Shown here: one piece after another, positions 37,341 to 61,904 of the stretch
How the letters are laid out: every line of letters starts with the position of its first letter
Numbering within the stretch: the first letter of the stretch is position 1
From: Leclercia adecarboxylata
GTDB lineage: Bacteria > Pseudomonadota > Gammaproteobacteria > Enterobacterales > Enterobacteriaceae
DNA: 64,000 bases
Assembly: GCF_006171285.1 (NCBI RefSeq)
Contig: NZ_CP040889.1
Coordinates: 4,092,001 to 4,156,000, forward strand
Direction: 5' to 3'
The notes under the pieces: generated by a model
Told to the model about the DNA's origin: nothing
The model's input: only the letters and a program-made list of their open reading frames with translations
The model's database searches: none
Position numbers and translations under genes: made by a program

Positions 37341-37976
37341 ATGCAACATATCATTGAAGGTTTTCTCAGCTTTCAAAAAGAAGTTTTTCCGCAACGTAAA
37401 GACCTGTTCCGCAGTCTGGCGTCCAGTCAGAATCCCAAAGCGCTGTTCATCTCCTGTTCTGACAGCCGCCTGGTGCCGGAATTAGTCACCCAGCAGGAGC
37501 CGGGACAGCTCTTTGTCATTCGTAATGCTGGCAACATCGTGCCACCGTTCGGGCCAGAGCCGGGCGGCGTTTCCGCCACCATCGAATACGCGGTTGTGGC
37601 GCTGGGCGTTACCGACATCGTGATCTGCGGCCACTCTAACTGCGGCGCGATGAAGGCCATTGCCGACAACGCTAACCTCGAGCCGATGCCTGCCGTTTCA
37701 CACTGGCTGCGCTACTCCGATGCGGCGAAAGCAGTCGTGGAAAACAAAACCTGGGATAACCCGACCGACAAAGTGAATGCCATGGTGCAGGAGAACGTCT
37801 TCGCCCAGCTGAGCAACATCAAAACTCACCCGTCCGTCGCGGTCGGCCTGCGTAACAACGCCATTCGCCTGCACGGCTGGGTGTACGATATCGAAAGCGG
37901 CGACATTCGCGCCCTGGATAAAGAGACCAAAACCTTCGTCTCTCTGTCCGAAAACCCAGGCGTTTACTTCGAGTAA
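37341..37976 (+). CDS. beta-class carbonic anhydrase
   Basis: Interconverts CO2 and bicarbonate. The 211-residue protein has the zinc ligands Cys39 (ISCSDSR), His98 and Cys101 (CGHSNCGA), with the Asp41-Arg43 dyad. It is closer to the CynT/plant-type branch than to E. coli Can by its [22 protein letters not shown] stretch. No cyanase gene is next to it, so I assign no symbol. A perfect hairpin follows. Confidence 0.92.
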
Positions 37977-38016: not shown

Positions 38017-39183
38017 TCACGGCAGTGCTTCGAGCTTCAGCCCCGCGCGCTTCGCCGTTTCCGGTAACAGATCCATTGCCGTAACAAACCCATCCGGATC
38101 CAGACAGCGGTTCGCCGCTCTTGCCTGCTTCAGTATCTCCCGATCCCAGTACACGCGCTTACGCTGATCGCCCTCCGTCGTCAGAATGCACTCCATGTCG
38201 CCCTCCAGGGCGCGGTAGCGCCGCCAGCTGTTCGCCGGGATCGAAATAACCGAACGCTCAGGGGCGACAATGCTCACCTCTTCGCCTTCTTCATTCCAGG
38301 TCACCTCCAGCGTGCCCTTGAAGACCATGATCACCTGCACGTCCGGGCAGAGGTGGCGGCCCACCACGTGGTCTGACTTCAGGCGCAGCCACTCAACGGA
38401 GAAGCCGTGCGGGTTAACGATAGCCGGTTCCGCGTGTTTATCCTGGCTAATGCCAAAGCCGATCACCGGGGCGAGCTCGCCGCCGTGGCCCGGCAGCACC
38501 GAATCGAGTAACCCCGCCGCCGACCAGCGACGATCCTCCCCGGTCACCGCCCGCTGGCGCATCTCCTCCACGGAGTAGTGGCGCAGGGCGGCGATTTCGT
38601 GCTCCGGCAGCGGGGTCAGCAGCCCCGCCGGCTCCGGCAGGGTATCCCCCGCATTGACGTCGAGGAGCATATTCTCCTTGCTCAGGTAGAGTCCGTACTC
38701 GCTGGCCGCGGCCAGAATCGACGGATGCCAGATGATCCCCCCGGTGTTATTCCCGCCCAGCACCGTGTAGACCATGCCGCAGGTCTCTTCTTTACTGACG
38801 TTGGTGAAGCCGCGGAAGATCCAGGTCGGGATAGAGAGGATGGCCGGGGCGCTGAACTCGGCTTCGTTTTCGCCGTTGGCTCCCCAGCGAAAGCGCCAGG
38901 TTCCCTCATGGATCAAAAACACTTCGGCGGTGAAGTGCAGGTGCAGGTTATTGGTCACCCCTTTTGGCATCGCCGCCGCGCCGATGTTGAAGCCGTGCGG
39001 TTCCGGGATATTGACCACCTGGGCGGACGACTGGGTCACGCCCGGGCCAATAAAGGAGTAGTTCTGTTTCAGGTGCGAGCCGGGAAGCTTGCAGTCGATA
39101 AAGGCCAGATTGCAGGACACCATATCTTCAGGGGCAACCAGACGGCTGCGGGCCAGTTCCGGGGTAATGTGACGTGCTTTCAT
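38017..39183 (-). CDS. bicupin protein of the catabolic cluster
   Basis: A 388-residue protein with two cupin domains. The first (about 75-145) shows NLHLHFTAEVFLIHEGTWRF, the second (about 265-330) shows VVGRHLCPDVQVIMVFKGTLEV; both retain His and Glu/Asp metal-ligand positions only partly. It resembles gentisate-dioxygenase-like bicupins in layout, but dioxygenase activity is not shown. It is the last gene of a six-gene leftward operon, 11 bases after the aldolase. Confidence 0.75.
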   Translation of the reverse strand: MKARHITPELARSRLVAPEDMVSCNLAFIDCKLPGSHLKQNYSFIGPGVTQSSAQVVNIPEPHGFNIGAAAMPKGVTNNLHLHFTAEVFLIHEGTWRFRWGANGENEAEFSAPAILSIPTWIFRGFTNVSKEETCGMVYTVLGGNNTGGIIWHPSILAAASEYGLYLSKENMLLDVNAGDTLPEPAGLLTPLPEHEIAALRHYSVEEMRQRAVTGEDRRWSAAGLLDSVLPGHGGELAPVIGFGISQDKHAEPAIVNPHGFSVEWLRLKSDHVVGRHLCPDVQVIMVFKGTLEVTWNEEGEEVSIVAPERSVISIPANSWRRYRALEGDMECILTTEGDQRKRVYWDREILKQARAANRCLDPDGFVTAMDLLPETAKRAGLKLEALP

Positions 39184-39194
39184 GTTCTCTCCTG

Positions 39195-39983
39195 TTAATA
39201 GCCTGATGCGCCGGATTTAGGGATCGCGTTGCCGCGCGCCAGGGCGATAGCCTCGCGTGAGGCGCGGCCAAGTTGCATGACATCGTTCGCCGGGGTGACA
39301 AACTGAAAACCTTCGTTGATGCGCCGGGCGGCGGCGTCGCCGGAGGTACAAAAGATCCCGGCGATTTTCTGCCACTGACGACAGCGGCTGACCACCAGCT
39401 CAATGGCGGCCAGCATCTCAGGGTGCTGAGATTCGGCGCTGGCGCTGCCGGTCAGGGTTAACGAGAGATCGTTCGGGCCGATAAACACCCCGTCCAGCCC
39501 CTCGGTGGCGAGGATCGCATCGAGATTAGCCAGCCCGTCGCGGGTTTCGATCATCGCCAGGGTCAGAATTTCATCGTTGGCGTGCTGCGGGTAATCGGCC
39601 CCGCCGTAGAGCAGGCCGCGGGCCGGGCCAAAGGAGCGGTTGCCCAGCGGCGGATAGCGGCAGGCGGCCACAAAGCGCCGGGCCTGTTCCGGGGTGGAGA
39701 TCATCGGGCAGATAATGCCGTAGGCCCCTGCATCCAGCATGCGCATGATCTGCGCCGGGTCGTTATCGGAGACCCGCACCAGCGGCACCGCCGGGGTAGC
39801 GGAGAGCGCCTGCAGCATCGACAGCGCGCTGGCGAAGTCGATCATGCCGTGCTGAAGATCGACGGTGACCGCGTCAAAGCCCTGATGGCCGACGATCTCG
39901 GCGCTGTAGCCCGACGGGATCGCCAGCCAGCCGTTAATAATGGCGCTGCCGTCCGGCATTGCCCTGAGTCTGTTCTTACGCAT
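39195..39983 (-). CDS. HpcH/HpaI-family aldolase
   Basis: Start at 39983 (ribosome binding site AGGAGTG); 262 residues. A class II pyruvate aldolase fold of the HpcH/HpaI family: DAVTVDLQHGMIDF carries the catalytic His, PLVRVSDND the catalytic Arg, and MIETRDGLANLDAI plus GLDGVFIGPNDLS the metal ligands. Such enzymes cleave 4-hydroxy-2-oxo acids to pyruvate and an aldehyde. It overlaps the hydrolase gene by eight bases and so is translationally coupled. The natural substrate is unknown. Confidence 0.88.
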   Translation of the reverse strand: MRKNRLRAMPDGSAIINGWLAIPSGYSAEIVGHQGFDAVTVDLQHGMIDFASALSMLQALSATPAVPLVRVSDNDPAQIMRMLDAGAYGIICPMISTPEQARRFVAACRYPPLGNRSFGPARGLLYGGADYPQHANDEILTLAMIETRDGLANLDAILATEGLDGVFIGPNDLSLTLTGSASAESQHPEMLAAIELVVSRCRQWQKIAGIFCTSGDAAARRINEGFQFVTPANDVMQLGRASREAIALARGNAIPKSGASGY

Positions 39984-40692
39984 GTAAACACTCCTGGATC
40001 CAGTGACGTAGCGGGAGGGCAACCTCGTCGGGCGCTTCGAGCAGGGTGAAATGCCCGGCACAGGCGACGGTAACGTGCTTCACCTGAGGCGCGCTCTGCG
40101 CCACCCGCTGGTGGTGATGAGGCGTGCAGATGGGATCGTGCAGGCCGTTGATAACGATGATGGGGCAGGCGAGGGCGGCCAGCGCCGCGCGATTATCCCG
40201 CCGGGTAATGGCGATCTCGGTCTGGGTGGCGAGGGTATCGAGGCCACTCTCCTCTGCCATCAGACAAATAAGATCCTGCAGGGCCTGGTCATCCACGCGC
40301 GACGGCGCAACGTACTTCGGCCACAGGCTGGCGGAGAGCCAGTTTGTCAGCCCCTGCTGCCGGGCAGCGCGCACCGCCTCGCGGCGGGGAGCGGCATTTT
40401 CTGGCGCATCCGCAAGGGGGTTAACCGACAGCAGCGCCAGCCCGGCAATGCGCCCGGGCGCGTCGGCGACCATCTGTAGCGCCACAATCGCCCCCAGCGA
40501 GAAGCCCGCCAGCAGAAAGCGCGGCGGCAGTTCGCTCAGCAGCGAGCGGGAGGCTTGCGCCGCCGAGGTAGCGTCCGCAAGCGTAATGCACCGCACGTCA
40601 GAGACCTTGAGCCTGTCGAGCACCGGCTGCCAGAGGCGCGGGTTACAGAGCGTGCCGCCGATCAGCACCAGCGGCAGGGCGTGATTATCCAT
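39976..40692 (-). CDS. alpha/beta hydrolase
   Basis: A 238-residue cytoplasmic hydrolase with nucleophile elbow GFSLGA, acid in INGLHDPICTP and general-base His in ACAGHFTLLE. Such enzymes hydrolyse esters, lactones or C-C bonds. It sits between the SDR and aldolase genes, so it may open a lactone or ester intermediate of the pathway. Confidence 0.85.
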   Translation of the reverse strand: MDNHALPLVLIGGTLCNPRLWQPVLDRLKVSDVRCITLADATSAAQASRSLLSELPPRFLLAGFSLGAIVALQMVADAPGRIAGLALLSVNPLADAPENAAPRREAVRAARQQGLTNWLSASLWPKYVAPSRVDDQALQDLICLMAEESGLDTLATQTEIAITRRDNRAALAALACPIIVINGLHDPICTPHHHQRVAQSAPQVKHVTVACAGHFTLLEAPDEVALPLRHWIQECLHA

Positions 40693-40700
40693 ATGTCTCC

Positions 40701-41465
40701 TCAGGTTGCGGTCCAGCCGCCGTCGACCATCAGCGCGCTGCCGGTGATCATCCCTGCGGCACCGGAGGCGAGAAACACCACCGGACCCATCACGTCCTCC
40801 ACCGTGCCGGTGCGTCCGAGCTTGATGTTCTCCAGTACGTAGCGGCGAAAGTCGGGGTCAGCCAGCGACGAGGCGGTTAGCGCCGTCTCAATAAAGGTCG
40901 GGCAGAGGGTGTTGACCCGGATCCCGTCCTCGCCCAGCTCCAGCGCCATGGCTTTGGTTAACCCTTCCAGCGCAAATTTCGACGCGCAGTAGACGCTGCG
41001 CTTCGGGCCACCGACGTGGCCCATCTGCGAGGAGATGTGGATGATGGAACCCGCAATGCGCGCCTCGCGCATCCGGGCCGCTACCCGCTGGCTGACAAAA
41101 AAGGTGGCCCGCAGGTTGATCGCCATGACCGCATCGAAGTTCGCCTCGCTGACCGCCAGAAACGGCTCGTGGCGTGCCAGTCCGGCGCTGTTCACCAGAA
41201 TATCGAATGCGGGCAGGGCATCGGTTACGGCCTCAACCTGGGCGACATCGGTGATATCCAGCACCACTGGATGCAGGCGCAGATCGCGCTCGGCGGCGAG
41301 GGTTGTGGCCGCCTCCAGCGTCTGGCGATCCCGGGCGGCGATCCATACCTGCGCCCCGGCATGGGCCAGCGCGACGGCGCAGGCGAACCCCAGCCCTCTG
41401 GAGCCGCCCGTCACCAGGGCACGCTTGCCGTGCAGGCTAAAGGAGGGCATCTGAGGAAAGGTCAT
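40701..41465 (-). CDS. short-chain dehydrogenase/reductase
   Basis: A 254-residue SDR of the classical type: coenzyme motif TGGSRGLGFA near residue 19, NSAG, catalytic Ser in IHISSQMG and the YCASK pair, and the GSALMVDGG end. It oxidises a secondary alcohol with NAD(P). In the R-2,3-dihydroxypropanesulfonate pathway, HisD-like HpsN is accompanied by another dehydrogenase, but no sulfonate lyase is nearby here. Confidence 0.9.
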   Translation of the reverse strand: MTFPQMPSFSLHGKRALVTGGSRGLGFACAVALAHAGAQVWIAARDRQTLEAATTLAAERDLRLHPVVLDITDVAQVEAVTDALPAFDILVNSAGLARHEPFLAVSEANFDAVMAINLRATFFVSQRVAARMREARIAGSIIHISSQMGHVGGPKRSVYCASKFALEGLTKAMALELGEDGIRVNTLCPTFIETALTASSLADPDFRRYVLENIKLGRTGTVEDVMGPVVFLASGAAGMITGSALMVDGGWTAT

Positions 41466-41468
41466 GGC

Positions 41469-42791
41469 TTATACCTTCTCTCTGACCGGCGCAGGGGTGG
41501 CGTAAGGCACCTCCACCTGACCGTAGCGGCGCACGCGGATATTGGCCTGCTCGGCGTGACCGGCGAAGCCTTCCAGCAGGGACAGGCGCGAGCAGTAGCT
41601 GCCGATCTCGGCGGTGGCCTCGTCGCTGAGCACCTTCTGCCAGGTACAGGTTTTCATGAATTTGCCCACCCACAGACCGCCGGTGTAGCGCGCCGCTTTT
41701 TGCGTCGGCAGGGTGTGGTTGGTGCCGATCACCTTGTCGCCGTAGGCCACGTTGGTGCGCGGGCCGAGGAACAGCGCGCCGAAGTTGGTCATGTTGGCGA
41801 GGAACCAGTCGTCGCGGTTAGTCATCACCTGCACATGCTCGGAGGCGATGCGGTCGGCTTCGGCGAGCATTTCGTCGTAGCTGTCGCAAACGATGATCTC
41901 CCCGTAGTCGTGCCAGGCCTGACGGGCGATGTCGGCGGTGGGCAGTTTTTCCAGCAGGCGCTCGATCTCCCGCAGCGTCTCTTTGGCAAGCGCCATCGAG
42001 TTGGTCAGCAGAATGGCGGGGGTGGTGACGCCGTGCTCGGCCTGCCCCAGCAGGTCGGTGGCGCACATTTCAGCATCCACGGTGTCGTCGGCAATCACCA
42101 GCGTCTCGGTCGGACCGGCAAAGAGATCGATCCCCACCCGGCCAAACAGCTGACGTTTGGCCTCCGCCACAAAGGCGTTGCCGGGGCCGACCAGCATATC
42201 CACCGGAGCCAGCGAATCGGTGCCGAGCGCCATCGCGCCGATGGCCTGGATGCCGCCTAAGGCGTAGATCTCAGTGGCCCCGGCCATTTTTTGCGCCGCC
42301 ACAATAGCAGGGGCAGGCTCGCCGCCGAACGGCGGGGCACAGCTGACGATGCGCGAGCAGCCCGCCACGTTGGCGGTGATAATCGACATATGCGCCGAGG
42401 CCAGCAGGGGATATTTCCCGCCAGGGACATAACAACCCACCGCATTAATAGGAATGTTTTTATGCCCGAGAATCACGCCCGGACGGGTTTCAATTTCCAG
42501 ATCGAGCAGACAGCCTTTTTGCGCCCGGGCGAAATTAAATACCTGTTCCTGAGCGAATTCGATATCGTGAATATCCTGGCGGCTCAGTTTATTGATACAG
42601 GCATTAATTTCCGCGTCGCTCAGACGATAATCCTGTCGATCGTAGCGGTCGAACTTAACCGATAATTCGCGAATGGCTTTATTTCCGCGTTTTTCAATAT
42701 CCGCCAGAATAAGCTCCACCGTTTCCCTTATTTGTCGCTGTGCATCCTGACGTTCCTGAACCGGTTTACTGGTTTTAAGCATATAAGCCAC
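41469..42791 (-). CDS. HisD-like zinc dehydrogenase (copy 1)
   Basis: A 440-residue member of the histidinol dehydrogenase superfamily, of the HpsN (sulfopropanediol 3-dehydrogenase) branch rather than true HisD. All catalytic positions are kept: QAEHG zinc ligands, the SEHVQ Glu-His pair, Asp in [15 protein letters not shown] and the last His in [10 protein letters not shown]. These enzymes oxidise primary alcohols to acids in two NAD-dependent steps. It starts 74 bases after the MFS gene and is three bases from the SDR gene. ATG at residue 4 is an alternative start. Confidence 0.87.
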
Positions 42792-42865
42792 AATATCGTC
42801 CTCGCATAGTTAAGATGATGACTGTCCTCCCGGCAGGCCGGGATAAATGTATGGGTGTTTAAAAA

Positions 42866-44104
42866 TTACTGGTCGCGCGCGGGCGCGAGTGGACCGTTAA
42901 TAGATAATTCCGCAGACGCAGGCATTTTACGGTTATTCACCCAGCGCACGGAGAGCGGGGTGACAATCGCCGCCACAACCGACAGGCCAGCAATAAACAG
43001 ATAGCCGGACGAGAGGTTAATGTGCTGCATCATCACCCCCATGATCACCGGCCCGGCAAACATCCCGCAGGAGTAGATGGTCTGGAACAGACCCATGCGC
43101 GTGGATTGCTCATCGGAGGTGGTGTTGACCACGCTCAGGGACATAAAGGCCGCAAACGCCATCCCGAAGGAGAAGCCGGCCAGCGCCTGCAGCAGATAGA
43201 TGACATACAGATTGCTGGTGAAGGGGATGCCAAAGGTCGACACCACCTGCAGCACAATGCCCAGCACCGCCGTCTTCAACAGCCCCAGGCGCGGGTAAAA
43301 GAGGCTGCTGCACAGGGCGATGGCCAGGGCGTAGAAGATGAGATGGATGTTGCTCAGCAACGTTAAGATCCCGGCACGCCCGCCTAACTGCTCGGCGTAG
43401 ATCGGCGTCAGCGTATCGCGGGTGGCAAAAGGCACCAGGATGACGAGGGTCGCCAGAATACCAATCAGCCACACCGAGCGGTCGGCCAACTGCTGGCGGG
43501 CCCCGGCGATACAGGCTTTCAGGGTCGGGGCTTTCACCGGGTCATGCACATCCCGGATGCGGGTGGTGAGGAACAGCGCCACCAGCGCCGAGACGCAGGA
43601 GACGAAAAATGCGATGTTGTTCTCAAAATAGTGAATCAACAGACCGCCGATGCAGTTGCCGAGAAATACCCCAAGCGGGCCCGCCAGCGCCAGGAAGGCC
43701 ACCGCGGCTGGGGCGTCTTTGCGGTCAAAGTAGCGCATAAACAGGATGTTGTAGAGCACCCAGGTGGCGGCGGTGACGCCGTCAGCCGCTTTGGCCAGGT
43801 ACAGGGTGATGGCATTCGGCTCCAGCCAGGCCAGCGGCCAGGCGATAATCGGCAGCACCAGCGCGGCCTGGATAAAGATTTTTCGACTCTTCACCACGTC
43901 GGAAATAATCCCCAGCGGGAAGCGGATCAGCAGGGTGGCGAGGCCGCTGGCCCCCATGATGATCCCCATCACCTGCGGCTCCATCCCCTGATTGATCATC
44001 ATCGGGGCCAGAAACGCATCAATGCTGTGAATACAGATAAAAAACAACACGCTGATGATAAAAAACAGCCGGGCTTCAGGTCGGCGTAACAGTGCTCGAA
44101 ACAT
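42866..44104 (-). CDS. MFS transporter of the catabolic cluster
   Basis: Start at 44104 (ribosome binding site AGAGG), 412 residues, about 12 transmembrane segments, with the MFS loop 2-3 motif in the form FPLGIISDVVKSRK. The preceding open stretch lacks a ribosome binding site. It is first in the leftward operon and should import the substrate. Family members of this kind (DHA-like) are not specific enough to name the compound. Confidence 0.87.
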   Translation of the reverse strand: MFRALLRRPEARLFFIISVLFFICIHSIDAFLAPMMINQGMEPQVMGIIMGASGLATLLIRFPLGIISDVVKSRKIFIQAALVLPIIAWPLAWLEPNAITLYLAKAADGVTAATWVLYNILFMRYFDRKDAPAAVAFLALAGPLGVFLGNCIGGLLIHYFENNIAFFVSCVSALVALFLTTRIRDVHDPVKAPTLKACIAGARQQLADRSVWLIGILATLVILVPFATRDTLTPIYAEQLGGRAGILTLLSNIHLIFYALAIALCSSLFYPRLGLLKTAVLGIVLQVVSTFGIPFTSNLYVIYLLQALAGFSFGMAFAAFMSLSVVNTTSDEQSTRMGLFQTIYSCGMFAGPVIMGVMMQHINLSSGYLFIAGLSVVAAIVTPLSVRWVNNRKMPASAELSINGPLAPARDQ

Positions 44105-44222
44105 GGTTGTGAACCTCTTAAGAATTAATGGGTTATAACCAGCCAAGTACAACGTTTACCGGCTCAATCCTTTTGGATACTGCCCAATCTGCCCGGTACA
44201 ATTGACGGTGTGAAAACTGCGC

Positions 44223-44236
44223 TGCATACGTATTCA
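44223..44236. promoter_or_regulatory. LacI-family operator candidate, distal copy
   Basis: TGCATACGTATTCA, a 14-base palindrome with one mismatch, near the likely -35 region of the leftward operon. It shares TGCATACG.AT.CA with the second copy 90 bases away. Confidence 0.62.
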
Positions 44237-44312
44237 AAAATTGAAGTTACGAAAAGGTTTCAATTTTGTAAAGGTCGTTTGTCACCATTGTGAAAAAAAT
44301 AATTTAGGCTGT

Positions 44313-44326
44313 TGCATACGCATGCA
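44313..44326. promoter_or_regulatory. LacI-family operator candidate, proximal copy
   Basis: TGCATACGCATGCA inside the longer dyad TTGCAT-ACGC-ATGCAA. It lies just downstream of a TTGTCA/TAATTT promoter candidate (44279-44305) for the regulator gene, so it could mediate autorepression. Confidence 0.62.
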
Positions 44327-44433
44327 AACATGGTGTAAGTATAAAAAGTACCCGCTTCCTGCGGCGCGGTGACAGGGGAATGACCTGCCACAGACGCCGG
44401 TTCGGGAAGCGTCAGGGATAAGGAACACGGGTA

Positions 44434-45504
44434 ATGAAACGTAAGACTTTTACAGCGGTGACCTCGCAACAGGTGGCACAGCTGGCGGGAGTATCACAGT
44501 CGGCGGTGTCCCGCACCTTCACGCCGGGCGCCAGCATCTCACCGGCAACGCGTGAGAAGGTGCTGAAGGCTGCGCGGGAGCTGGGCTACCGACCCAACGC
44601 CATCGCCCGCTCGCTCAACACGGCCCGATCCCGCATCATCGGGGTGGTGATCTCCTATTTTGATAACCAGTTTTACCCGCAGGTGCTTGAGGCGCTGGCG
44701 CAAAAGCTGGATACCCTTAACTATCACCTGCTGCTGTTCGTGGGCGATCGTGACGGCAATGTGGATCGCATTTTCGACCAGATCATGCAGTACCGGGTGG
44801 ACGGCATCGTGCTTGCCTCGGTCACGCTGTCGCTGGATCTCTCCCAGGAGTGCCTGGCCGCCGGGATCCCGGTGGTGCTGTTTAACCGCAGCGAAGAGAG
44901 CGGAATGGCCTCGAGCGTCAACAGCAATAACGAAGCGGCCTCCCGCCAGATTGCCGAGTTTTTACTGGCGGCAGGGCATAAGCGTTTTGCCTACGTGGGC
45001 GGCGTGGCGGACTCGTCGGTGAATATTGCCCGCCAGCGCGGGTATCAGCAGGCCCTGCAGGAGCAGGGGATCGACGATATTCGGGTGGTGAACGGCAACT
45101 ACGATGCCCAGGAAACTGCCCGCGCGGCCTACGCGCTCTTCTCCACGTCGCCCGCGCCGGACGCCATTTTTGTCGCCAATGACCATATGGCGGTGATCGT
45201 TATGGACGTGGCGCGCTACGAGTTTGGCCTGCGCATCCCGGAGGATGTCTCGGTGGTGGGATACGACGATATCGGCCCGTCCGGCTGGGCCTCCTACGCC
45301 CTAACCTCCGCGTCGCAGCCGGTTGAAGAGATGGTCAGCGCTACGGTGGAGTTACTGATGAAGCAGATCGACAGCGGCACTATCGAACCTGAACAAATTA
45401 CCGTGCCGGGCAAGCTGGTGGTACGCCACTCTGCGCGCCGACCGCATACGGGTGCCCTCGACGCAGAGGGTTATGACATGTTCCAGACGCAGGAGGACAA
45501 ATGA
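44434..45504 (+). CDS. LacI-family transcriptional repressor
   Basis: A 356-residue LacI/GalR regulator: helix-turn-helix in the first 60 residues (TSQQVAQLAGVSQSAVSRTF, hinge PNAIARSLNTARS) and a periplasmic-binding-protein-like effector domain. It is divergent from the MFS operon, with two TGCATACG-type operators in the 330-base gap, and its stop overlaps the start of the next gene (ATGA). It most likely responds to the substrate or an intermediate of the cluster. Confidence 0.92.
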   Translation: MKRKTFTAVTSQQVAQLAGVSQSAVSRTFTPGASISPATREKVLKAARELGYRPNAIARSLNTARSRIIGVVISYFDNQFYPQVLEALAQKLDTLNYHLLLFVGDRDGNVDRIFDQIMQYRVDGIVLASVTLSLDLSQECLAAGIPVVLFNRSEESGMASSVNSNNEAASRQIAEFLLAAGHKRFAYVGGVADSSVNIARQRGYQQALQEQGIDDIRVVNGNYDAQETARAAYALFSTSPAPDAIFVANDHMAVIVMDVARYEFGLRIPEDVSVVGYDDIGPSGWASYALTSASQPVEEMVSATVELLMKQIDSGTIEPEQITVPGKLVVRHSARRPHTGALDAEGYDMFQTQEDK

Positions 45505-46472
45505 GCAGATTGCCGGGCTTCAGCCCCCAGTTCGATTCCATTCAACAGTTTATTCTCACCCTGACTCATGTGGTCTGGGAGCAAAAAGATATCGGCCAGC
45601 TCGCCGACTTTTACGCCTCGCCGGTGGTCTTTATCACCCCGGAAAAGCAACTGACCGACCTGCAGCAGTTTATGCGCCTGACCCTCGAGGCGATGCACAG
45701 CTTTCCCCAGCGCACCGTGCTGACGGAAGACATTCTGGCGACCGAGAATCCAGGCAATGAGTACTACGCCGCCCAGCGCACCATCGCCTGCATCCGCCAC
45801 ATGGGCGAAGGCTTTTTCGGTGCCCCCAGCGGCAAAACCCTCTGGGTGCGCACCTGGGCCGACCGCATCTGCGCCGACGGCGCGGTGCGCCAGGAGTGGC
45901 TCCTGCAGGACCGGGCGGCGATTGTCGCCCAGCTCGGCTTAAACGTGCAGGCGTTCGCGCGCAATCTGGCGGTGATGCAGGAGCAGCTCGGCATTACCCC
46001 TGCCACCGCAGAAACGCTCGACGCCCGCTGGGCGGGTGGCCCGGACGGGGATGACGTTGAGGGGCCGATTGCCGGGGTGGTGGAGCGCTATCTGACCATG
46101 TGGGCCGGGGGCAACAGCGGCACCGTGCCGGGGCTGTACCATCCTGCCGCCACCCTCTATGCTCCGGGCCACTGCAGCGGCACGGGAGAGCAGGAGATCG
46201 CCGCGCTGCTGTCGGGCTACCGGGCGTCATTCGCCGACAGCGAAGTGCAGCTGCACCACCTGATCGTGCGTCGGGATCCTGGCGAGCCGGTGCGCATCTC
46301 CCTGCGCTGGTCGCTCCTGACCTGGCACGACGGCTACGGTAAATTTGGCGTGCCGACCCGTAAACCGGTGTCGATTACCGGTATCAGCCAGCTTGAACTG
46401 CGCGATGGGTTAATTATTCGCGAATATCTTGGTATTGATGAATTAGCTATCTGGTCGCAAATCGTGAATTAA
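45501..46472 (+). CDS. double-domain NTF2/SnoaL-like protein (copy 1)
   Basis: A 323-residue protein with two NTF2-like halves (about 10-160 and 180-320), each shaped like SnoaL-type cyclases or isomerases (THVVWEQKDIGQLADFYAS; then VERYLTMWAGGNSGTVPGLYH). Start and stop overlap the lacI gene, so it is cotranscribed with the repressor. SnoaL-like domains catalyse aldol, dehydration or isomerisation chemistry, but many are not enzymes. Not recognised in more detail. A terminator follows. Confidence 0.72.
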   Translation: MSRLPGFSPQFDSIQQFILTLTHVVWEQKDIGQLADFYASPVVFITPEKQLTDLQQFMRLTLEAMHSFPQRTVLTEDILATENPGNEYYAAQRTIACIRHMGEGFFGAPSGKTLWVRTWADRICADGAVRQEWLLQDRAAIVAQLGLNVQAFARNLAVMQEQLGITPATAETLDARWAGGPDGDDVEGPIAGVVERYLTMWAGGNSGTVPGLYHPAATLYAPGHCSGTGEQEIAALLSGYRASFADSEVQLHHLIVRRDPGEPVRISLRWSLLTWHDGYGKFGVPTRKPVSITGISQLELRDGLIIREYLGIDELAIWSQIVN

Positions 46473-46500
46473 GCGGAGGTTCGCCTCCGTTATATTTTTT
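46473..46500 (+). terminator. terminator behind the first NTF2-like gene
   Basis: Stem CGGAGG-TTCG-CCTCCG with a very stable UUCG tetraloop, then TTATATTTTTT. It separates the regulator-NTF2 unit from the next three genes, which may have their own promoter in 46503-46603. Confidence 0.8.
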
Positions 46501-46603
46501 CTCTGAAACGTTTTTAAATCCGCCGCAATAAATATTGCGGCTCCATTCTCCATCCATTCCGGGTGCGGGATCGTATTGTCTGAAAACAGAAGCAGGGGTT
46601 CAT

Positions 46604-47743
46604 ATGTCTTCCACTGAAGCAACGAATAAAGCACCAGCCGTACCTGAAAAAAACAATAAGCCCACCCGTGATGAACCGGTATTACAGGTTGAACGTCGCG
46701 ACTTTATTGATTTAGTGCCGGAGAAACGTCCCCGCGCGCAATCATTACGCGGGTTCGATGAGTGTTATACCGATATTGTCGATTATATCGTTCGCTGCAC
46801 CCATAAAATATGGGATGAACGCGACGTGGGATTAATTTACACCCACTATACCCACAACTGCGTTTTATATAACGCGCTCGGCACGCTCTATACCCGCGAG
46901 CAGGTGGTGCAGGATACGCTCCAGCGTCTGGTGGCCTTCCCGGAACGTCGCGGCATGGCAACGCAGGTGATCTGGAACGGTAACGACGTGGACGGTTTCT
47001 ATACCTCGCACCTGGTGACCGGCAGCGGGCGTCACACCCAGTTCAGCCACCTTGGCAAACCGACCAACCGCACCTTTGTCACCCGCACCGTGGCTGACTG
47101 CATGATCCACGAGAACAAGATCTACCGTGAGTGGGTGGTGAGCGACAACATGTCCCTGATGAAGCAGCTGGGGCTGAACACCGACGAAATCGCTTACAAC
47201 ATGGCGAAAGAGCAGTTCGACAAGGGTTTTCGCGTCACCGACATCGGCGAAAACGGCCGCATGCTGGGCCAGTATCCGCCGGAGATGGTCTGCGATGTCT
47301 CCATTGCCCATACCGACACCGAAGAGCAGTGCCTGCGCTGGATGCACGAAATCTACAACCGCCGCATGCTCGGCAAAATCAAGGAAGTGTACGCGCCAAA
47401 CGTCCAGTGGCACGGTCCGCTGATGAAAGAGCTGTACGGCACGGCGTCGGTGACCCACCAGACGCTGGCCCTGATCGGCATGATCCCCGATGGCGCCTGG
47501 CTGCCGCAGCATATCTGCTCCAATCCGTGCGAGGAAGGCGGCACCAAGGTGGCGATTCGCTGGATCATCGAGGGCCATCATCTGGGCTACGGCGAGCTGG
47601 GTAAACCGACCGGGGAACGCCTGTTCGTGATGGGGATGTCTCACTACCACATTATCAACGGCAAAATTGTCGACGAGTGGGTGATTTACGATCATCTGGC
47701 GCTGCTGGCACAAATCAAACTGGGTCAAATGGAGGAAGCATAA
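46604..47743 (+). CDS. double-domain NTF2/SnoaL-like protein (copy 2)
   Basis: Start at 46604 (AGGGGT upstream); 379 residues. After a polar N terminus come two NTF2-like domains (about 60-200 and 225-370), with CTHKIWDERDVGLIYTHYTH and EQCLRWMHEIYNRRMLGKIK as matching helices and a Trp/His-rich pocket. It is a paralogue of copy 1. Its stop overlaps the next start by one base (TAATG), showing coupling with the second HisD-like gene. The activity is unknown. Confidence 0.72.
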   Translation: MSSTEATNKAPAVPEKNNKPTRDEPVLQVERRDFIDLVPEKRPRAQSLRGFDECYTDIVDYIVRCTHKIWDERDVGLIYTHYTHNCVLYNALGTLYTREQVVQDTLQRLVAFPERRGMATQVIWNGNDVDGFYTSHLVTGSGRHTQFSHLGKPTNRTFVTRTVADCMIHENKIYREWVVSDNMSLMKQLGLNTDEIAYNMAKEQFDKGFRVTDIGENGRMLGQYPPEMVCDVSIAHTDTEEQCLRWMHEIYNRRMLGKIKEVYAPNVQWHGPLMKELYGTASVTHQTLALIGMIPDGAWLPQHICSNPCEEGGTKVAIRWIIEGHHLGYGELGKPTGERLFVMGMSHYHIINGKIVDEWVIYDHLALLAQIKLGQMEEA

Positions 47744-49053
47744 TGTCTGTACAGTCAATCGTGGACCAGGTGAGCTGGATCAAACGTCCCCAGGGGCAGA
47801 ACGCGCAGGCCGACAAATCGTTAACCGATAAGGTCAGCGCCATTATCGAGCGCGTGAAGGGCGAGGGCGATGCCGCCCTGAGAGACTTCTCGCAGCAGTT
47901 TGATAAGGTGGTCCCGGCGCAGTTCGAAGTCACCCCTGAGGAGATCGAAACCGCGCTGCGCGAGATGGACCCGCAGACCCGCCGCGACAGCGAGTTTGCC
48001 ATCGCTCAGGTGCGTCGCTTTGCCGAAGCCCAGCTCGCCACCATGCAGCCGCTGGAGGTGGAAACCCTGCCTGGCGTGCATCTGGGGCACCGGATCATTC
48101 CGGTCCAGACGGTGGGCTGCTACGTCCCGGGCGGGCGCTACCCGATCCTCTCCGCGCCGGTGATGTCCATCGTGCCCGCCACGGTGGCCGGATGCGAACA
48201 GATTATCGCCTGCCTGCCGCCCGCGGCGCACCCGTCGATGATTGCGGTCTGTCACCTGGCCGGGGCCCATCGCATCTTTAAAATCGGCGGCGCTCAGGCG
48301 GTGGCGGCGATGGCCTGGGGCACTGAGAGCGTCCCGGCGGTGGATAAAATTGTCGGGCCGGGCAACGCCTTTGTGAACGAGGCCAAGCGCCAGGTGTTCG
48401 GCAAGGTGGGGATTGACGCCCTGGCGGGACCGAGCGAAATCTTCACCATCGCCGACGACAGCGCCGATGCGCGCATTATTGCCGCCGACCTGCTGGCGCA
48501 GGCCGAACATGACGTTCATACCCGCGTCGGGCTGGCGACCACCAGCCGGGCGATTGCCGAGGGAACCCTGGCCGAGATCGAACGCCAGCTGACCACGCTG
48601 CCGACCGCCGCGACGGCGGGTGAAGCCTGGCGTCGCCAGGGGGAGATCGTGGTGTGCGACAGCGAAGAGCAGCTGATCGCCTTCGCTGATTACATGGCCA
48701 CCGAGCATCTGCAGGTCCATACCCGGGATCCGCACGGCACCGCGGCGAAAATTCGCAATTACGGCTCGCTGTTTATCGGCCAGAACGCCAGCGTGGTGTT
48801 CTCGGATAAATGCTGCGGCACCAACCACACCCTGCCCACCATGGCGGCGGCGCGCTACACCGGCGGGCTGTGGGTGGGAGCCTACGTTAAAATCTGTACC
48901 CATCAGTGGATCGACGAGCAGGGCATCGCCGCCATTGCGGAACCGGCGATCCGCCAGAGCCGTACCGAGGGGATGCAGGGCCACCGCCGTGCGGCGGAGA
49001 TCCGTCTGCGCCCGGAAGCGCTGGACGCCATCACCTCCGGGCTGCGCGACTAA
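47743..49053 (+). CDS. HisD-like zinc dehydrogenase (copy 2)
   Basis: A 436-residue paralogue of the first HisD-like enzyme, well diverged from it. Zinc and catalytic residues are conserved: QAEHD, ATEHLQVH, Asp in [14 protein letters not shown] and His in EGMQGHRRA. It has [11 protein letters not shown] and GPGNAFVNEAKRQ, the NAD and substrate loops. It is not the biosynthetic hisD: there are no other his genes. Two such enzymes suggest two alcohol-oxidation steps or two substrates. Confidence 0.87.
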   Translation: MSVQSIVDQVSWIKRPQGQNAQADKSLTDKVSAIIERVKGEGDAALRDFSQQFDKVVPAQFEVTPEEIETALREMDPQTRRDSEFAIAQVRRFAEAQLATMQPLEVETLPGVHLGHRIIPVQTVGCYVPGGRYPILSAPVMSIVPATVAGCEQIIACLPPAAHPSMIAVCHLAGAHRIFKIGGAQAVAAMAWGTESVPAVDKIVGPGNAFVNEAKRQVFGKVGIDALAGPSEIFTIADDSADARIIAADLLAQAEHDVHTRVGLATTSRAIAEGTLAEIERQLTTLPTAATAGEAWRRQGEIVVCDSEEQLIAFADYMATEHLQVHTRDPHGTAAKIRNYGSLFIGQNASVVFSDKCCGTNHTLPTMAAARYTGGLWVGAYVKICTHQWIDEQGIAAIAEPAIRQSRTEGMQGHRRAAEIRLRPEALDAITSGLRD

Positions 49054-49105
49054 CGGCGACGGGAGGCCGGGCGCAGGCCTGGCCTCCGGCATGATAAGGG
49101 ATGGT

Positions 49106-50419
49106 ATGAAAAAACAACGGCTGATTCCCCCCAGGGACTGCGTTGAGGAAATAGCCCGGCGGCTGGCGATTATCGCTGCCCAGCCGCAGCTGAACGCCAT
49201 ACTTGGGGTAAACCCGGACGCGCTGGCCGAGGCGGAACAGTGCCAGGCGCTGCGCCGTCGCGGCCAGCTGCTGGGGCCCCTGCACGGCGTGCCGCTGATC
49301 GTCAAAGATAATATTGCCTGCGCCGGACAACCGCTCACGGCAGGGTGCGAGGCGCTGGCCGCGCTTCGACCTACCACCGACGCGCTGGTGGTGCAAAGAT
49401 TACGCGCCGCCGGGGCGATTATTCTGGCCCGGGCCAATATGTCCGAGTTTGCTTTTGACGTCCGCTCCCGCAGCTCACTCGGCGGGGACGTGCATCACCC
49501 ATTGTTTCCGGGCATCACCGCGGGCGGCTCCAGCGGGGGCAGCGCGGCGGCGGTGGCTGCCGGTATGGCGGAAGGCGCCCTCGGCACTGATACCGGCGGC
49601 TCGATCCGCATCCCGTGCAGCTACACCGGGCTGGTGGGGCTAAGACCCCGCCTGCGCCGGGCCATGATGGAGGGGATTGCGCCGCTCTCCCTGAGTAAAG
49701 ATACGGTGGGACCGATGGTCCACAGCGTGCAGGATGCGGCTCTGCTGCACGGGATACTCCACGGCCACAGGCCGCGCGCCGTTGAGCCGGTGTCGCTGAA
49801 AGGGGTGCGCTTTGGAACAATCCGCGCCCTGGAGGGCGTTGATGCTCAGCAGCATGAGGTGTGGCACGCCGCCCTTGCGCGGCTGACGCGTCACGGCGCG
49901 ACGCTTGTTGAAACAGACCTGCCGATCCTGGGGGAAATTGAGGTGGCAACCTGCCTGAGCCTGTATGAATTTCGGGTGGGGTTGGACGCCTGGCTAAAAC
50001 AGCATCCGGGCGCGCCCGGCGATCTGCGGGGGATTGTCGCTTCAGGACGATTTTTGCCAGAGTTTTTACCGTTGCTGACGCAGATGCTCGCCAGCGACAG
50101 GCTGAAAACTCCGGCATGGCTCGCCGGACGGCAGCTGCGTCGTCGGCTGCGTCAGGCTCTGGCACAACGAGCGGAGCAGGAACGTTTAGACGGTTTTCTT
50201 TACCCGACGGTGAGCCGGATCCCGGAGAGCCTGGAGAAAATGCCCCCCGGCTGCGCGCCGGAGCTTGCAGCAATCAGCGGATTCGCCGCCATCACGCTGC
50301 CCTGCGGCAGAACGCGGAGCGGCTTTCCGGTGGGGCTGGAAATTCTTTCGCCAGCGGCGGATGAAGCCCCGCTGCTGGCGCTGGCCGCCGCCTGCGAAAC
50401 CGCGTTTACTCGTCCGTAA
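49106..50419 (+). CDS. amidase-signature family hydrolase
   Basis: Start at 49106 (AAGGG five bases upstream); 437 residues. The Ser-Ser-Lys triad is clear: Lys in LIVKDNIAC, Ser in AGGSSGGSAAAVAAG and the second Ser in GTDTGGSIRIPCS. It hydrolyses an amide, possibly on the pathway substrate. It is the last gene of the rightward unit and ends 14 bases inside the convergent ydhS gene. Confidence 0.9.
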   Translation: MKKQRLIPPRDCVEEIARRLAIIAAQPQLNAILGVNPDALAEAEQCQALRRRGQLLGPLHGVPLIVKDNIACAGQPLTAGCEALAALRPTTDALVVQRLRAAGAIILARANMSEFAFDVRSRSSLGGDVHHPLFPGITAGGSSGGSAAAVAAGMAEGALGTDTGGSIRIPCSYTGLVGLRPRLRRAMMEGIAPLSLSKDTVGPMVHSVQDAALLHGILHGHRPRAVEPVSLKGVRFGTIRALEGVDAQQHEVWHAALARLTRHGATLVETDLPILGEIEVATCLSLYEFRVGLDAWLKQHPGAPGDLRGIVASGRFLPEFLPLLTQMLASDRLKTPAWLAGRQLRRRLRQALAQRAEQERLDGFLYPTVSRIPESLEKMPPGCAPELAAISGFAAITLPCGRTRSGFPVGLEILSPAADEAPLLALAAACETAFTRP

Positions 50420-52016
50420 ACTCCAGCCGTCTGCGCACCCGCGAGGCGGGCTGGACGGCGGCTTTCGCTATCGCCTCGCCGATCTCGGCACAGACCACCA
50501 GACCCTGGACAAAGGGGCGATCGTGCATCAGATACGGCAGCGCGCCGAAGGCGATGCGCCCGCGCAGATACTCCGGTGCCAGCAGGGTGTAATCGTCCCC
50601 CACGTCGGGGATCTCCTCTCCGGCGGATTCCAGCTGGTGGCGCAGCACCGGGAACGGCAGGTCTTTGGTCTTGAGCGGTTTCTGCCCGCGCGCATCGATA
50701 AAGACATCGAAATACGCGACCTCGCCCCGGGCCTCGATCACCGTCCGGTCCTCTTTTACCGCCATCTCATAGTCGTCACCCAGCGTCAGAATGCTGATGA
50801 TGCCCGCCTCGCGCAGGGCCAGCAGTCGGCGGATGGACTGAGACGGGATCGCCGCATAGTTGTCGATAAAAACGCGCGCCAGCCCGACCTTAAAGCGCTC
50901 CCGGTCCTTTTTCGTCAGATGGGGAACAATCTTCTCAACGGCCTCGTGCAGCCGCAGGATCGTATAGCGCCACGGCACCGTGCGTTTGTCGCGCTTGTTG
51001 CGTTCCACTTCATTAAGGTTAGAGACCGCCCAACGGAACGGGCCATGTTTCTCGCGGTCGGCAAACCAAGCGTCGCGAATGGTGTCGGCCGTCAGGGTCT
51101 CTAACGCTACCGCGTCACTCCACTGGGGATCGGCATGCTTGAGCTCGGCAACGACAAGTTCAAAGATGCGGTCGAGCAAGCCCTCTGAACCCTGCTCGAT
51201 GGCCGCGTCAATCGCCTGTTCCGTGGCGATAGTTAACGGCTCATAGGGGATCGGACAATAAAAATCGGCTTCGGGAAGGATGCCCGAGCGGGACATCAGC
51301 ACAATCTTCAGCGTCTCGCTGTCCTCATCCAGTTGGAAATGAATCTGTTCATCATCGGTCTCGATAAACTTGCCATGCTGAATGGCCACGGCCATCGCCG
51401 CATCCAGCCCGCTTAACGATGTGCCAAGAATGCCGACGTTACAGGCCGGGATTTTGGCCTCCATCAGCCCGGACCAGGGGCTCGGGAAGAAGGAGCGCGA
51501 GGCGGCATCTTCGTCAGGCCAGACGTGTCCGGTGGCGATAACGGCCAGATCGAACGGCTCAGGCTCGATTTCACCCTCGGCCCATACATTGACCCCGTCA
51601 GGCGTAGCCTCCACGTCGGTGACCTGACAGGACTCGAGGACGTTAACCTCAAAGCCCTGTTTTCTTGCCTGCCCGATAAGCGCCAGGAACTGATCGCGGA
51701 AATACTGGCCCAGCAGAATACGCGGCAGGAACTGCCGGTCGTGCAGGGCGGATTTTTGCACGCCGTAGCGCGCCAGATGGGCGTCGCTCTGGGTGCGCAG
51801 CCACTCGAGATAGGTCGAAAACAGGGGCGGGATCTCGATGCTGGCGATATTGGCCAGCATCATGCGCGAGTTATCTTCATCGCTGTAGGGCATCCCGACG
51901 CCTGCCTCTTCGGCCTGCTCATAGACGTTGACGCAGAGCGGTGTGTTCAGTTTCAGAAGCGAGAAGAGGGTATAAATACCGGTGGGGCCAGCCCCGACAA
52001 TGGCGATCTTTTTCAT
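50406..52016 (-). CDS. ydhS: FAD/NAD(P)-binding protein YdhS
   Basis: The start at 52016 gives 536 residues starting MKKIAIVGAGPTGIYTLFSLL, in line with E. coli YdhS (534). It has the dinucleotide fold at the N terminus and the family stretch IATGHVWPDE, and CNVGILGTSLSGLDAAMAVA as second nucleotide-binding motif. It is an uncharacterised FAD-dependent oxidoreductase. It is convergent with the amidase gene, marking the return to backbone. Confidence 0.92.
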   Translation of the reverse strand: MKKIAIVGAGPTGIYTLFSLLKLNTPLCVNVYEQAEEAGVGMPYSDEDNSRMMLANIASIEIPPLFSTYLEWLRTQSDAHLARYGVQKSALHDRQFLPRILLGQYFRDQFLALIGQARKQGFEVNVLESCQVTDVEATPDGVNVWAEGEIEPEPFDLAVIATGHVWPDEDAASRSFFPSPWSGLMEAKIPACNVGILGTSLSGLDAAMAVAIQHGKFIETDDEQIHFQLDEDSETLKIVLMSRSGILPEADFYCPIPYEPLTIATEQAIDAAIEQGSEGLLDRIFELVVAELKHADPQWSDAVALETLTADTIRDAWFADREKHGPFRWAVSNLNEVERNKRDKRTVPWRYTILRLHEAVEKIVPHLTKKDRERFKVGLARVFIDNYAAIPSQSIRRLLALREAGIISILTLGDDYEMAVKEDRTVIEARGEVAYFDVFIDARGQKPLKTKDLPFPVLRHQLESAGEEIPDVGDDYTLLAPEYLRGRIAFGALPYLMHDRPFVQGLVVCAEIGEAIAKAAVQPASRVRRRLEFTDE

Positions 52017-52144
52017 TGTGTCCACCTGCTGTTTTTTACCGAATCCATGGGAATAATGCCATGCAGGATAAGTGTGGTAGAAAACGGGTGATGAGCAACT
52101 CAGAAACGAGGCTGAAAGCGATAAATCAGATAAGAAGAGGAGTT

Positions 52145-52170
52145 GCACCATTTCAGGACTGAAATGGTGC
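52145..52170 (-). terminator. hairpin overlapping the tRNA-Val 3' end
   Basis: A 12-bp perfect inverted repeat, GCACCATTTCAG and complement; its left minus-strand arm is formed by the last bases of the tRNA (GCACCA). It is followed on the minus strand by a T-rich stretch, ACTCCTCTTCTT. It probably acts as the tRNA terminator. Confidence 0.6.
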
Positions 52171-52241
52171 GTCCGAGTGGACTCGAACCACCGACCCCCA
52201 CCATGTCAAGGTGGTGCTCTAACCAACTGAGCTACGGACGC
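52165..52241 (-). tRNA. valW: tRNA-Val (anticodon GAC), distal copy
   Basis: 77 nt cloverleaf beginning GCGTCCGTAGCTCAGTTGG and ending in encoded CCA. The anticodon GAC lies in the loop CTTGACATG (complement of 52205-52207). Second of a tandem pair; position and sequence match E. coli valV-valW. Confidence 0.96.
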
Positions 52242-52245
52242 AGAA

Positions 52246-52322
52246 TGGTGCGTTCAATTGGACTCGAACCAACGACCCCCACCATGTCAAGGTGGTGCTC
52301 TAACCAACTGAGCTATGAACGC
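52246..52322 (-). tRNA. valV: tRNA-Val (anticodon GAC), proximal copy
   Basis: 77 nt, beginning GCGTTCATAGCTCAGTTGG and ending with CCA; anticodon at the complement of 52286-52288. The acceptor stem differs from the other copy by compensated changes. Only four bases separate the two. Confidence 0.96.
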
Positions 52323-61780: not shown

Positions 61781-61904
61781 TGCTTCTCTCCTTATTATAG
61801 TGATCCATTCAATAACCATATTGAATGTAAGGGTAGAGTAGCAAATTGAAAGGGTATGCAAAAGAGGAACTTACCCCGCTGGCGTGCCAGCGGGGTAGGG
61901 GAGA

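Follow-up and report, generated by a model that had tools for sequence, protein, structure and literature searches.

A conserved, mobile and probably catabolic islet with a LacI-family regulator in Leclercia adecarboxylata, of a type for which no description was found

The window analyzed here is a 64,000-nt stretch of the Leclercia adecarboxylata genome (assembly GCF_006171285.1, contig NZ_CP040889.1, positions 4,092,001 to 4,156,000 of the forward strand). At positions 38017–50419 of the window lies a cluster of 11 open reading frames (ORFs) in two divergent arms around a LacI-family regulator. The initial annotation had described this arrangement, and all 11 ORFs and their families were confirmed. 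The gene set is one 12.4-kb accessory insertion, or islet. Start sites were refined against the annotated Pantoea copy and by inspection of start codons, and the resulting genes are as follows.

38017..39183, minus strand: bicupin, 388 aa, with a Cupin_2 match
39195..39983, minus strand: HpcH/HpaI aldolase (PF03328)
39976..40692, minus strand: alpha/beta hydrolase, distantly PcaD-like, with a Ser/Asp/His triad readable in the sequence
40701..41465, minus strand: short-chain dehydrogenase/reductase (SDR), by family match
41469..42791, minus strand: HisD-like A, here HisD-A (PF00815), starting at GTG 42791 or ATG 42782
42866..44104, minus strand: MFS transporter (PF07690), probable start ATG 44104, preferred over TTG starts
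44434..45504, plus strand: LacI-family regulator, by family match to the LacI helix-turn-helix and sugar-binding domain
45501..46472, plus strand: NTF2/SnoaL-like A, here NTF2-A, 323 aa (PF12680/PF07366)
46604..47743, plus strand: NTF2/SnoaL-like B, here NTF2-B, 379 aa, two-domain (PF07366)
47743..49053, plus strand: HisD-like B, here HisD-B (PF00815), its ATG at 47743 overlapping the NTF2-B stop
49106..50419, plus strand: amidase-signature hydrolase, 437 aa from ATG 49106 (PF01425)

The junctions in the left arm, in gene order, measured 11, -8, 8, 3 and 74 bp (negative values are overlaps), and those in the right arm -4, 131, -1 and 52 bp. The gaps of 1–11 bases and overlaps reported initially were thus found at six of the nine within-arm junctions, and not at those of 74, 131 and 52 bp. 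The divergent region between the arms spans 344 bp, or 329 bp with the MFS start at 44104. The aldolase ORF was over-extended (from 40061), and ATG 39983 is its probable start. The best NCBIfam match of the amidase was indoleacetamide hydrolase, at 326 bits, under the cut-off of 532. NTF2-A and NTF2-B are 24% identical; an AlphaFold2 model gave NTF2-B a SnoaL-like fold in both domains, and NTF2-A was assigned by Pfam alone.

The limits of the insertion were examined in 60 genomes of the genus, which were searched for the two flanking genes, with NTF2-B taken as the sign of the cluster. The flanks in the window are the following.

37341-37976: carbonic-anhydrase-like gene, left flank
50406-52151: ORF, right flank

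The cluster lay between these flanks in 12 of the 60 genomes, the window's own included, and the flank gap was 11.2–12.5 kb. The flanks were 31–179 bp apart in 44 of the 45 genomes without the islet at this site; the remaining one had a 2-kb gap. Three genomes could not be assessed. The difference between filled and empty spacing placed the ends of the islet close to the described genes. NTF2-B was present at another place in seven of the 45 genomes. A near-complete copy was carried by a Pantoea dispersa plasmid, the only one found in a plasmid DNA search, and a search of E. coli genomes with the cluster DNA gave no match. Two tandem tRNA-Val genes are situated at 52165-52322, near the right end of the islet, with the gene at 50406-52151 in between. 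At the same site in another genome (G055:C1:1997497-2012221), the islet copy contained stops and broken matches; that assembly is 78% complete, and decay and sequencing error were indistinguishable.

When genome contigs were scanned with NTF2-B, 118 loci were confirmed. The best 80 were analyzed further, 31 grouped as Enterobacterales (enteric) and 49 others. The loci stop 10 kb from NTF2-B, and gene counts per locus are lower bounds. Sixty-three of them (25 enteric and 38 non-enteric) were longer than 19 kb. Among these long loci from the best 80, at least one HisD type was present in 61 and both types in 48; two had no HisD match. The association of these genes is thus more than chance.

All 25 long enteric loci contained HisD-B, LacI, MFS and NTF2-A. 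The other members were the aldolase (23 loci), hydrolase and SDR (22 each), bicupin (21), HisD-A (20) and amidase (11). The co-conservation of the 11 genes expected from the initial annotation was borne out, except that the amidase is not a core member in enteric bacteria. In the 38 long non-enteric loci, LacI was found in 36, HisD-A and HisD-B in 32 each (both in 28), the bicupin in 28, and the hydrolase, SDR and amidase in 26 each. An aldolase of either type was present in 25, a MetE-like protein in 14 and a sugar-type solute-binding protein in 13. When all 83 fetched loci were counted, among them incomplete ones and a fragment from the genome of the window itself, the HpcH/HpaI aldolase (38 loci) and an RraA-like protein (29 loci) were mutually exclusive, with no locus containing both. 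The MetE-like protein was added in 16 of the 83 (e.g. L066, L089); in two loci its gene stands between the cupin and the hydrolase (L104:14961-16082, L102:15985-17106). A search for solved-structure relatives yielded none for the MetE-like protein and weak ones for the ABC solute-binding protein.

All or most of the set was found in records of Pantoea, Novosphingobium, Roseibium, Sinorhizobium, Martelella, Alloyangia, Octadecabacter and Deinococcus. What recurred in Alphaproteobacteria, Halomonas and Deinococcus was all or most of a set of two HisD-like proteins, SDR, bicupin, alpha/beta hydrolase, pyruvate-type aldolase and SnoaL/NTF2-like proteins, often with an amidase. The transporters differed, and were MFS, sugar-type ABC, TRAP beside ABC, TonB with MFS, or SSF. 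In Deinococcus sp. QL22, the SDR, LacI, HisD, aldolase, hydrolase and cupin genes adjoin a sugar ABC transporter; this strain also has four SnoaL-like genes, a second HisD and a carbon-nitrogen hydrolase, which occupies the place of the amidase in other clusters.

Precomputed Pfam domains revealed proteins in which NTF2-B is fused to the alpha/beta hydrolase (P0014, P0017, P0021, P0056 and others). This suggested that the NTF2-B and hydrolase steps are tied together. A Klebsiella michiganensis plasmid carries LacI, HisD-A, SDR, MFS, hydrolase, aldolase and bicupin without the second arm, which indicated that the left arm can stand alone.

In a record titled Chryseobacterium (L032), grouped here with Enterobacterales, the right arm is of the enteric type, like that of a Citrobacter record (L033), and the left-arm enzymes are absent from both; the former is probably a mislabelled assembly. 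The Novosphingobium cluster (L006:22109-30950) is near genes for GH127, GH95, arabinofuranosidase and TonB receptors. In a different family of the same taxonomic order, one genome (G065:C41:143000-162900, L180) has relatives of HisD-A, SDR, bicupin, aldolase, hydrolase, LacI, NTF2-B and MetE-like, together with genes for an SSF symporter and an Amidohydro_2 protein; the exact operator word described below is absent there.

Two putative LacI operators were located in the divergent region.

44222..44237: predicted LacI operator 1, CTGCATACGTATTCAA, with 1 mismatch to the consensus
44312..44327: predicted LacI operator 2, TTGCATACGCATGCAA

When up to two mismatches were allowed, the window gave five strand matches (0.15 expected), which were the two palindromes on both strands and one match at 61846. 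In the whole genome, the sole two sites with at most one mismatch were both within the islet, and matches with two mismatches were at the control level. Two sites upstream of LacI were present in 30 of the 31 enteric loci; the 31st is a short contig. Three extra sites in enteric loci lay before HisD-A (two loci) or before the SDR (one locus without HisD-A).

A related word, TTGMATWCGWATKCAA, was found exactly in 29 of the 49 non-enteric loci. With at most one mismatch, it occurred in 45 of the 49 (100 sites) and in eight of ten annotated plasmid clusters (15 sites); the reversed word gave 0 sites in both sets. In Deinococcus, the operator-like site is situated where the cupin and transporter genes diverge. 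Devosia and its relatives had sites before HisD-A, between HisD-B and the hydrolase, and before an operon of a sugar-type ABC transporter and amidase (genes named by Pfam in one Devosia genome). In the alignment rows that could be read, the LacI proteins of the enteric and alphaproteobacterial clusters have the DNA-binding stretch GVSQSAVSR in common.

The same word was used to probe 18 carrier genomes, chosen from the 49 non-enteric loci mostly where a site had already been seen. There were 53 exact sites across 17 of them, and 52 of these sites coincided with the fetched cluster locus or lay no further than about 7 kb from it. One exact site, on another contig of a Devosia genome (L118:1501-1516, G109:C41), is 34 bp before the start of an aldehyde dehydrogenase, possibly a distant member of the regulon.

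A phylum sample of 398 genomes contained the exact enteric operator in 14 genomes and HisD-B (E 1e-170 or better) in six, five of which had the operator. One genome with the operator and no HisD-B at this cut-off (G483) holds a HisD-A/LacI/HpcH cluster. In two other operator regions (L173, L174; genomes G065 and G342), the genes encode a TonB receptor plug domain, alpha-amylase and pullulanase, and the LacI there is 28–30% identical.

The best solved relative of both HisD-A and HisD-B is HpsN. A FastTree of 146 sequences was built, and residues were scored on 142. These were the two proteins of the window, their own copies again as taken from own-genome loci, 117 sequences of the 80 genome loci, and plasmid sequences for the remainder. 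HisD-B formed its own deep clade of 72 sequences (local support 0.999). Of the HisD-A sequences, 69 of 70 formed the sister of HpsN (0.937; joint node 0.996), the exception being from Deinococcus. A long branch separates both groups from HisD. The initial choice of HpsN as the nearest context held in that HpsN is the nearest solved relative and the cluster does not look like an HpsN pathway; in the tree, HisD-A groups with HpsN and HisD-B does not.

The catalytic Glu-His (HpsN Glu318-His319) and the zinc Asp-Lys (Asp352, Lys353) were kept in 142/142 sequences, and the Gln and His of the QAEH stretch in all sequences scored for them. The C-terminal His was present in 67/70 HisD-A sequences (3 gaps) and in 73/73 of the HisD-B group including the genome's own true HisD. 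A G[KR][YF]P motif and a Lys after the zinc Asp were found in 142/142; the window's versions are GKYPL (HisD-A) and GRYPI (HisD-B). EcHisD and the true HisD, which is encoded elsewhere in the genome (C2:246665), have a GSAPL motif and DY, with Tyr after the zinc Asp. In HpsN, the motif is GRY[AS]H with a sulfonate-contacting His126, and Lys353 also contacts the sulfonate (PMC11382572). This His was found in 0/142 sequences, the position being Leu, Met or Ile in all.

The kept catalytic residues and the absence of the HpsN His suggested that HisD-A and HisD-B are probably active four-electron alcohol dehydrogenases with a substrate other than dihydroxypropanesulfonate (DHPS) or histidinol. Both of these substrates were rejected on the active-site residues. 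Retention of Lys353 makes an oxygen-bearing or anionic group near the substrate alcohol likely, an inference from the residues.

The closest solved relatives of the aldolase were the SwHKA structures. The aldolase is 44% identical to Swit_5035 of Sphingomonas (Rhizorhabdus) wittichii RW1 (plasmid pSWIT02), which matches SwHKA (PDB 6r62) over residues 2-251. Against the named NCBIfam equivalogs (HpaI, GarL, KDR aldolase), it scored at best 183 bits and did not reach the cut-off of 369. The ligands of SwHKA are hydroxypyruvate and D-glyceraldehyde, and the part of the paper available names no natural role for the enzyme (PMC10099721). The initial annotation needs a correction here, in that the aldolase is kin to this solved and well-studied enzyme.

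An AlphaFold2 model of the bicupin (pLDDT 92) showed two cupin barrels, like those of oxalate decarboxylase and quercetinase YxaG. His81, His83 and Glu87 were invariant in 44 sequences, and the second half was variable. Relatives of the bicupin (E 1e-20 or better) were found in 24/398 genomes of the phylum sample and were commoner than HisD-B. The bicupin-aldolase-hydrolase trio was also observed beside OtnK in four genera: in Vibrio and Salinivibrio together with OtnI and a class II aldolase, in Thioclava together with a TIM-barrel protein and an aldolase, and in Ensifer together with an aldolase. All three Otn proteins of Vibrio were above their NCBIfam cut-offs. No HisD or SDR was annotated alongside in these tetronate-type loci (L094, L095, L100, L101). 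The trio with tetronate-type genes may possibly represent a second undescribed pathway.

The gene set forms one insertion, carries two copies of a recurring operator word and is found again across phyla. With moderate confidence, we interpreted it as a LacI-controlled, horizontally mobile catabolic islet for the import and degradation of one polyhydroxylated, sugar-like compound, which would bear an amide in many carriers. Branched or tetronate-like sugar acids are candidate substrate classes. The uptake, hydrolysis, alcohol oxidation and retro-aldol cleavage proposed initially are the steps that the gene families suggest. An inducer would free the inter-arm operators from LacI, and the compound would enter through the MFS transporter or, elsewhere, through a sugar-type ABC, TRAP or TonB system. 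The amidase would remove the amide-linked part where present. HisD-A and HisD-B, with zinc and NAD, would each convert a CH2OH that has a hydroxyl (or amino) neighbour to the carboxylate in a four-electron oxidation, and the SDR would oxidize a secondary alcohol. The SnoaL-like proteins, bicupin and alpha/beta hydrolase may isomerize, dehydrate or cleave the oxidized product to a 4-hydroxy-2-oxo acid, and the class II aldolase would split this, yielding an acid of the pyruvate or hydroxypyruvate type together with an aldehyde or keto acid. We propose no fixed order for the middle steps.

Several observations weigh against this interpretation. Five of the 25 full enteric loci have no HisD-A, and in two of these five every left-arm enzyme is missing; 16 of the 83 fetched stretches contain neither aldolase type. 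These gaps suggested that the pathway may differ between carriers. A 10-sequence alignment of the bicupin showed no conserved fourth metal ligand (a later His), and the functions given to the SnoaL-like proteins and the bicupin are guesses based on fold. Nine of the 14 operator-bearing genomes of the phylum sample lacked HisD-B at the cut-off. A tblastn search for the cluster enzyme genes found none in five genomes of family f7, with one region searched per genome, nor at one of two sites in G495, and the two f7 regions with genes named by Pfam (L173, L174) were starch regulons. The enteric operator, which also adjoins starch genes in another family, is therefore supporting but not unique evidence.

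A narrower form of this interpretation, which we regard as unlikely, is that the islet degrades a four-carbon or branched sugar acid of the tetronate, apionate or hamamelonate type, and that the amidase and NTF2 genes merely broaden the range of conjugates fed in. It agrees with the Otn-type genes adjoining the trio in Vibrio, Salinivibrio, Thioclava and Ensifer, and with the sugar-type ABC transporters that adjoin HisD-A relatives. However, there is no Otn-type gene among the 11, an OtnK match was found in 0/63 full loci, and two HisD-like enzymes are not needed for tetronate. A small biosynthetic cluster, in which SnoaL-like cyclases, cupin, SDR and HisD-like proteins act in tailoring, appeared improbable. 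The nearest folds of NTF2-B do include the polyketide-cyclase/hydroxylase proteins IdmH, SnoaL2 and AclR, but the 11 genes encode no polyketide or peptide synthase. Uptake systems (MFS, solute-binding-protein ABC, TRAP, TonB, SSF), interchangeable class II aldolases and LacI control also speak for catabolism rather than biosynthesis.

An HpsN-type DHPS pathway would fit two observations: among solved structures, HpsN is the best match of both HisD proteins, and in the tree it is the sister of HisD-A. The missing GRY[AS]H His and the absence of any sulfo-lyase family among the 11 genes, the latter as first noted, make such a pathway very improbable. It is equally hard to credit that the HisD-like genes are spare histidine-biosynthesis genes co-opted without a pathway. 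Both proteins exceed the TIGR00069 hisD cut-off, but the true hisD is elsewhere, Lys replaces Tyr after the zinc Asp, the G[KR][YF]P motif is universal in the scored set, and a long branch leads to HisD.

A bolder version of the sugar-like compound, and a long shot, is a cyclitol of the gadusol/mycosporine type. One HisD would oxidize the CH2OH on the tertiary carbinol carbon, and the second HisD and the amidase would act on an amino-alcohol/amide side chain such as glutaminol. The MetE-like accessory protein would take off the methoxy methyl and the bicupin would cleave the enediol ring, giving a 4-carboxy-4-hydroxy-2-oxoadipate-type acid, a known substrate of the RraA family. If so, this would be the first breakdown route for these sunscreen compounds, with HisD-type enzymes acting on carbohydrate-like substrates.

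No paper describing this gene combination was among those listed in searches of open-access PMC, in agreement with the initial statement that no described pathway with it was known. The main text of the rhizoSMASH paper contains none of six family terms of the cluster. We conclude that the cluster is an islet that is conserved, mobile and linked to LacI, that it is probably catabolic, and that its type is one for which no description was found. If our interpretation is correct, two separate groups of four-electron alcohol dehydrogenases would join the HisD superfamily, and the 'histidinol dehydrogenase' labels on HisD-A and HisD-B records are probably mis-annotations. The well-studied biocatalyst SwHKA would gain a genomic setting. 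There would also be a natural compound common enough to maintain a single conserved and mobile pathway in bacteria ranging from Enterobacter to Deinococcus. The substrate question is made directly testable by the operator and by the exchange of HpcH for RraA.

Compared with known systems, the HisD-like enzymes resemble HpsN (R-DHPS 3-dehydrogenase, PDB 8v35) in the HisD fold, the catalytic Glu-His, the zinc Asp and Lys and the other zinc ligands. They differ in lacking His126 and, in HisD-B, in forming a deep clade, and the cluster is without a sulfo-lyase. Both also have an SDR partner, which for HpsN is HpsO. The SwHKA locus of RW1 has the order SDR-hydrolase-aldolase-bicupin, and its hydrolase and bicupin are each 33% identical to those of the window, but no HisD, NTF2 or amidase is annotated in the fetched RW1 stretch. 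The tetronate pathway (OtnK/OtnC/OtnI) is related through the Otn-type genes next to the trio in the four genera above, and these genes are absent from the window's 11. From SnoaL, SnoaL2 and IdmH, the polyketide cyclases of this fold, NTF2-B differs in having two domains in tandem (379 aa) and in its setting, a cluster with a transporter and no polyketide synthase. With LacI-family sugar regulons the islet shares a regulator with helix-turn-helix and periplasmic-binding-like domains and a palindromic predicted operator with a CG centre; it differs in that the own-genome sites with at most one mismatch are confined to the islet.

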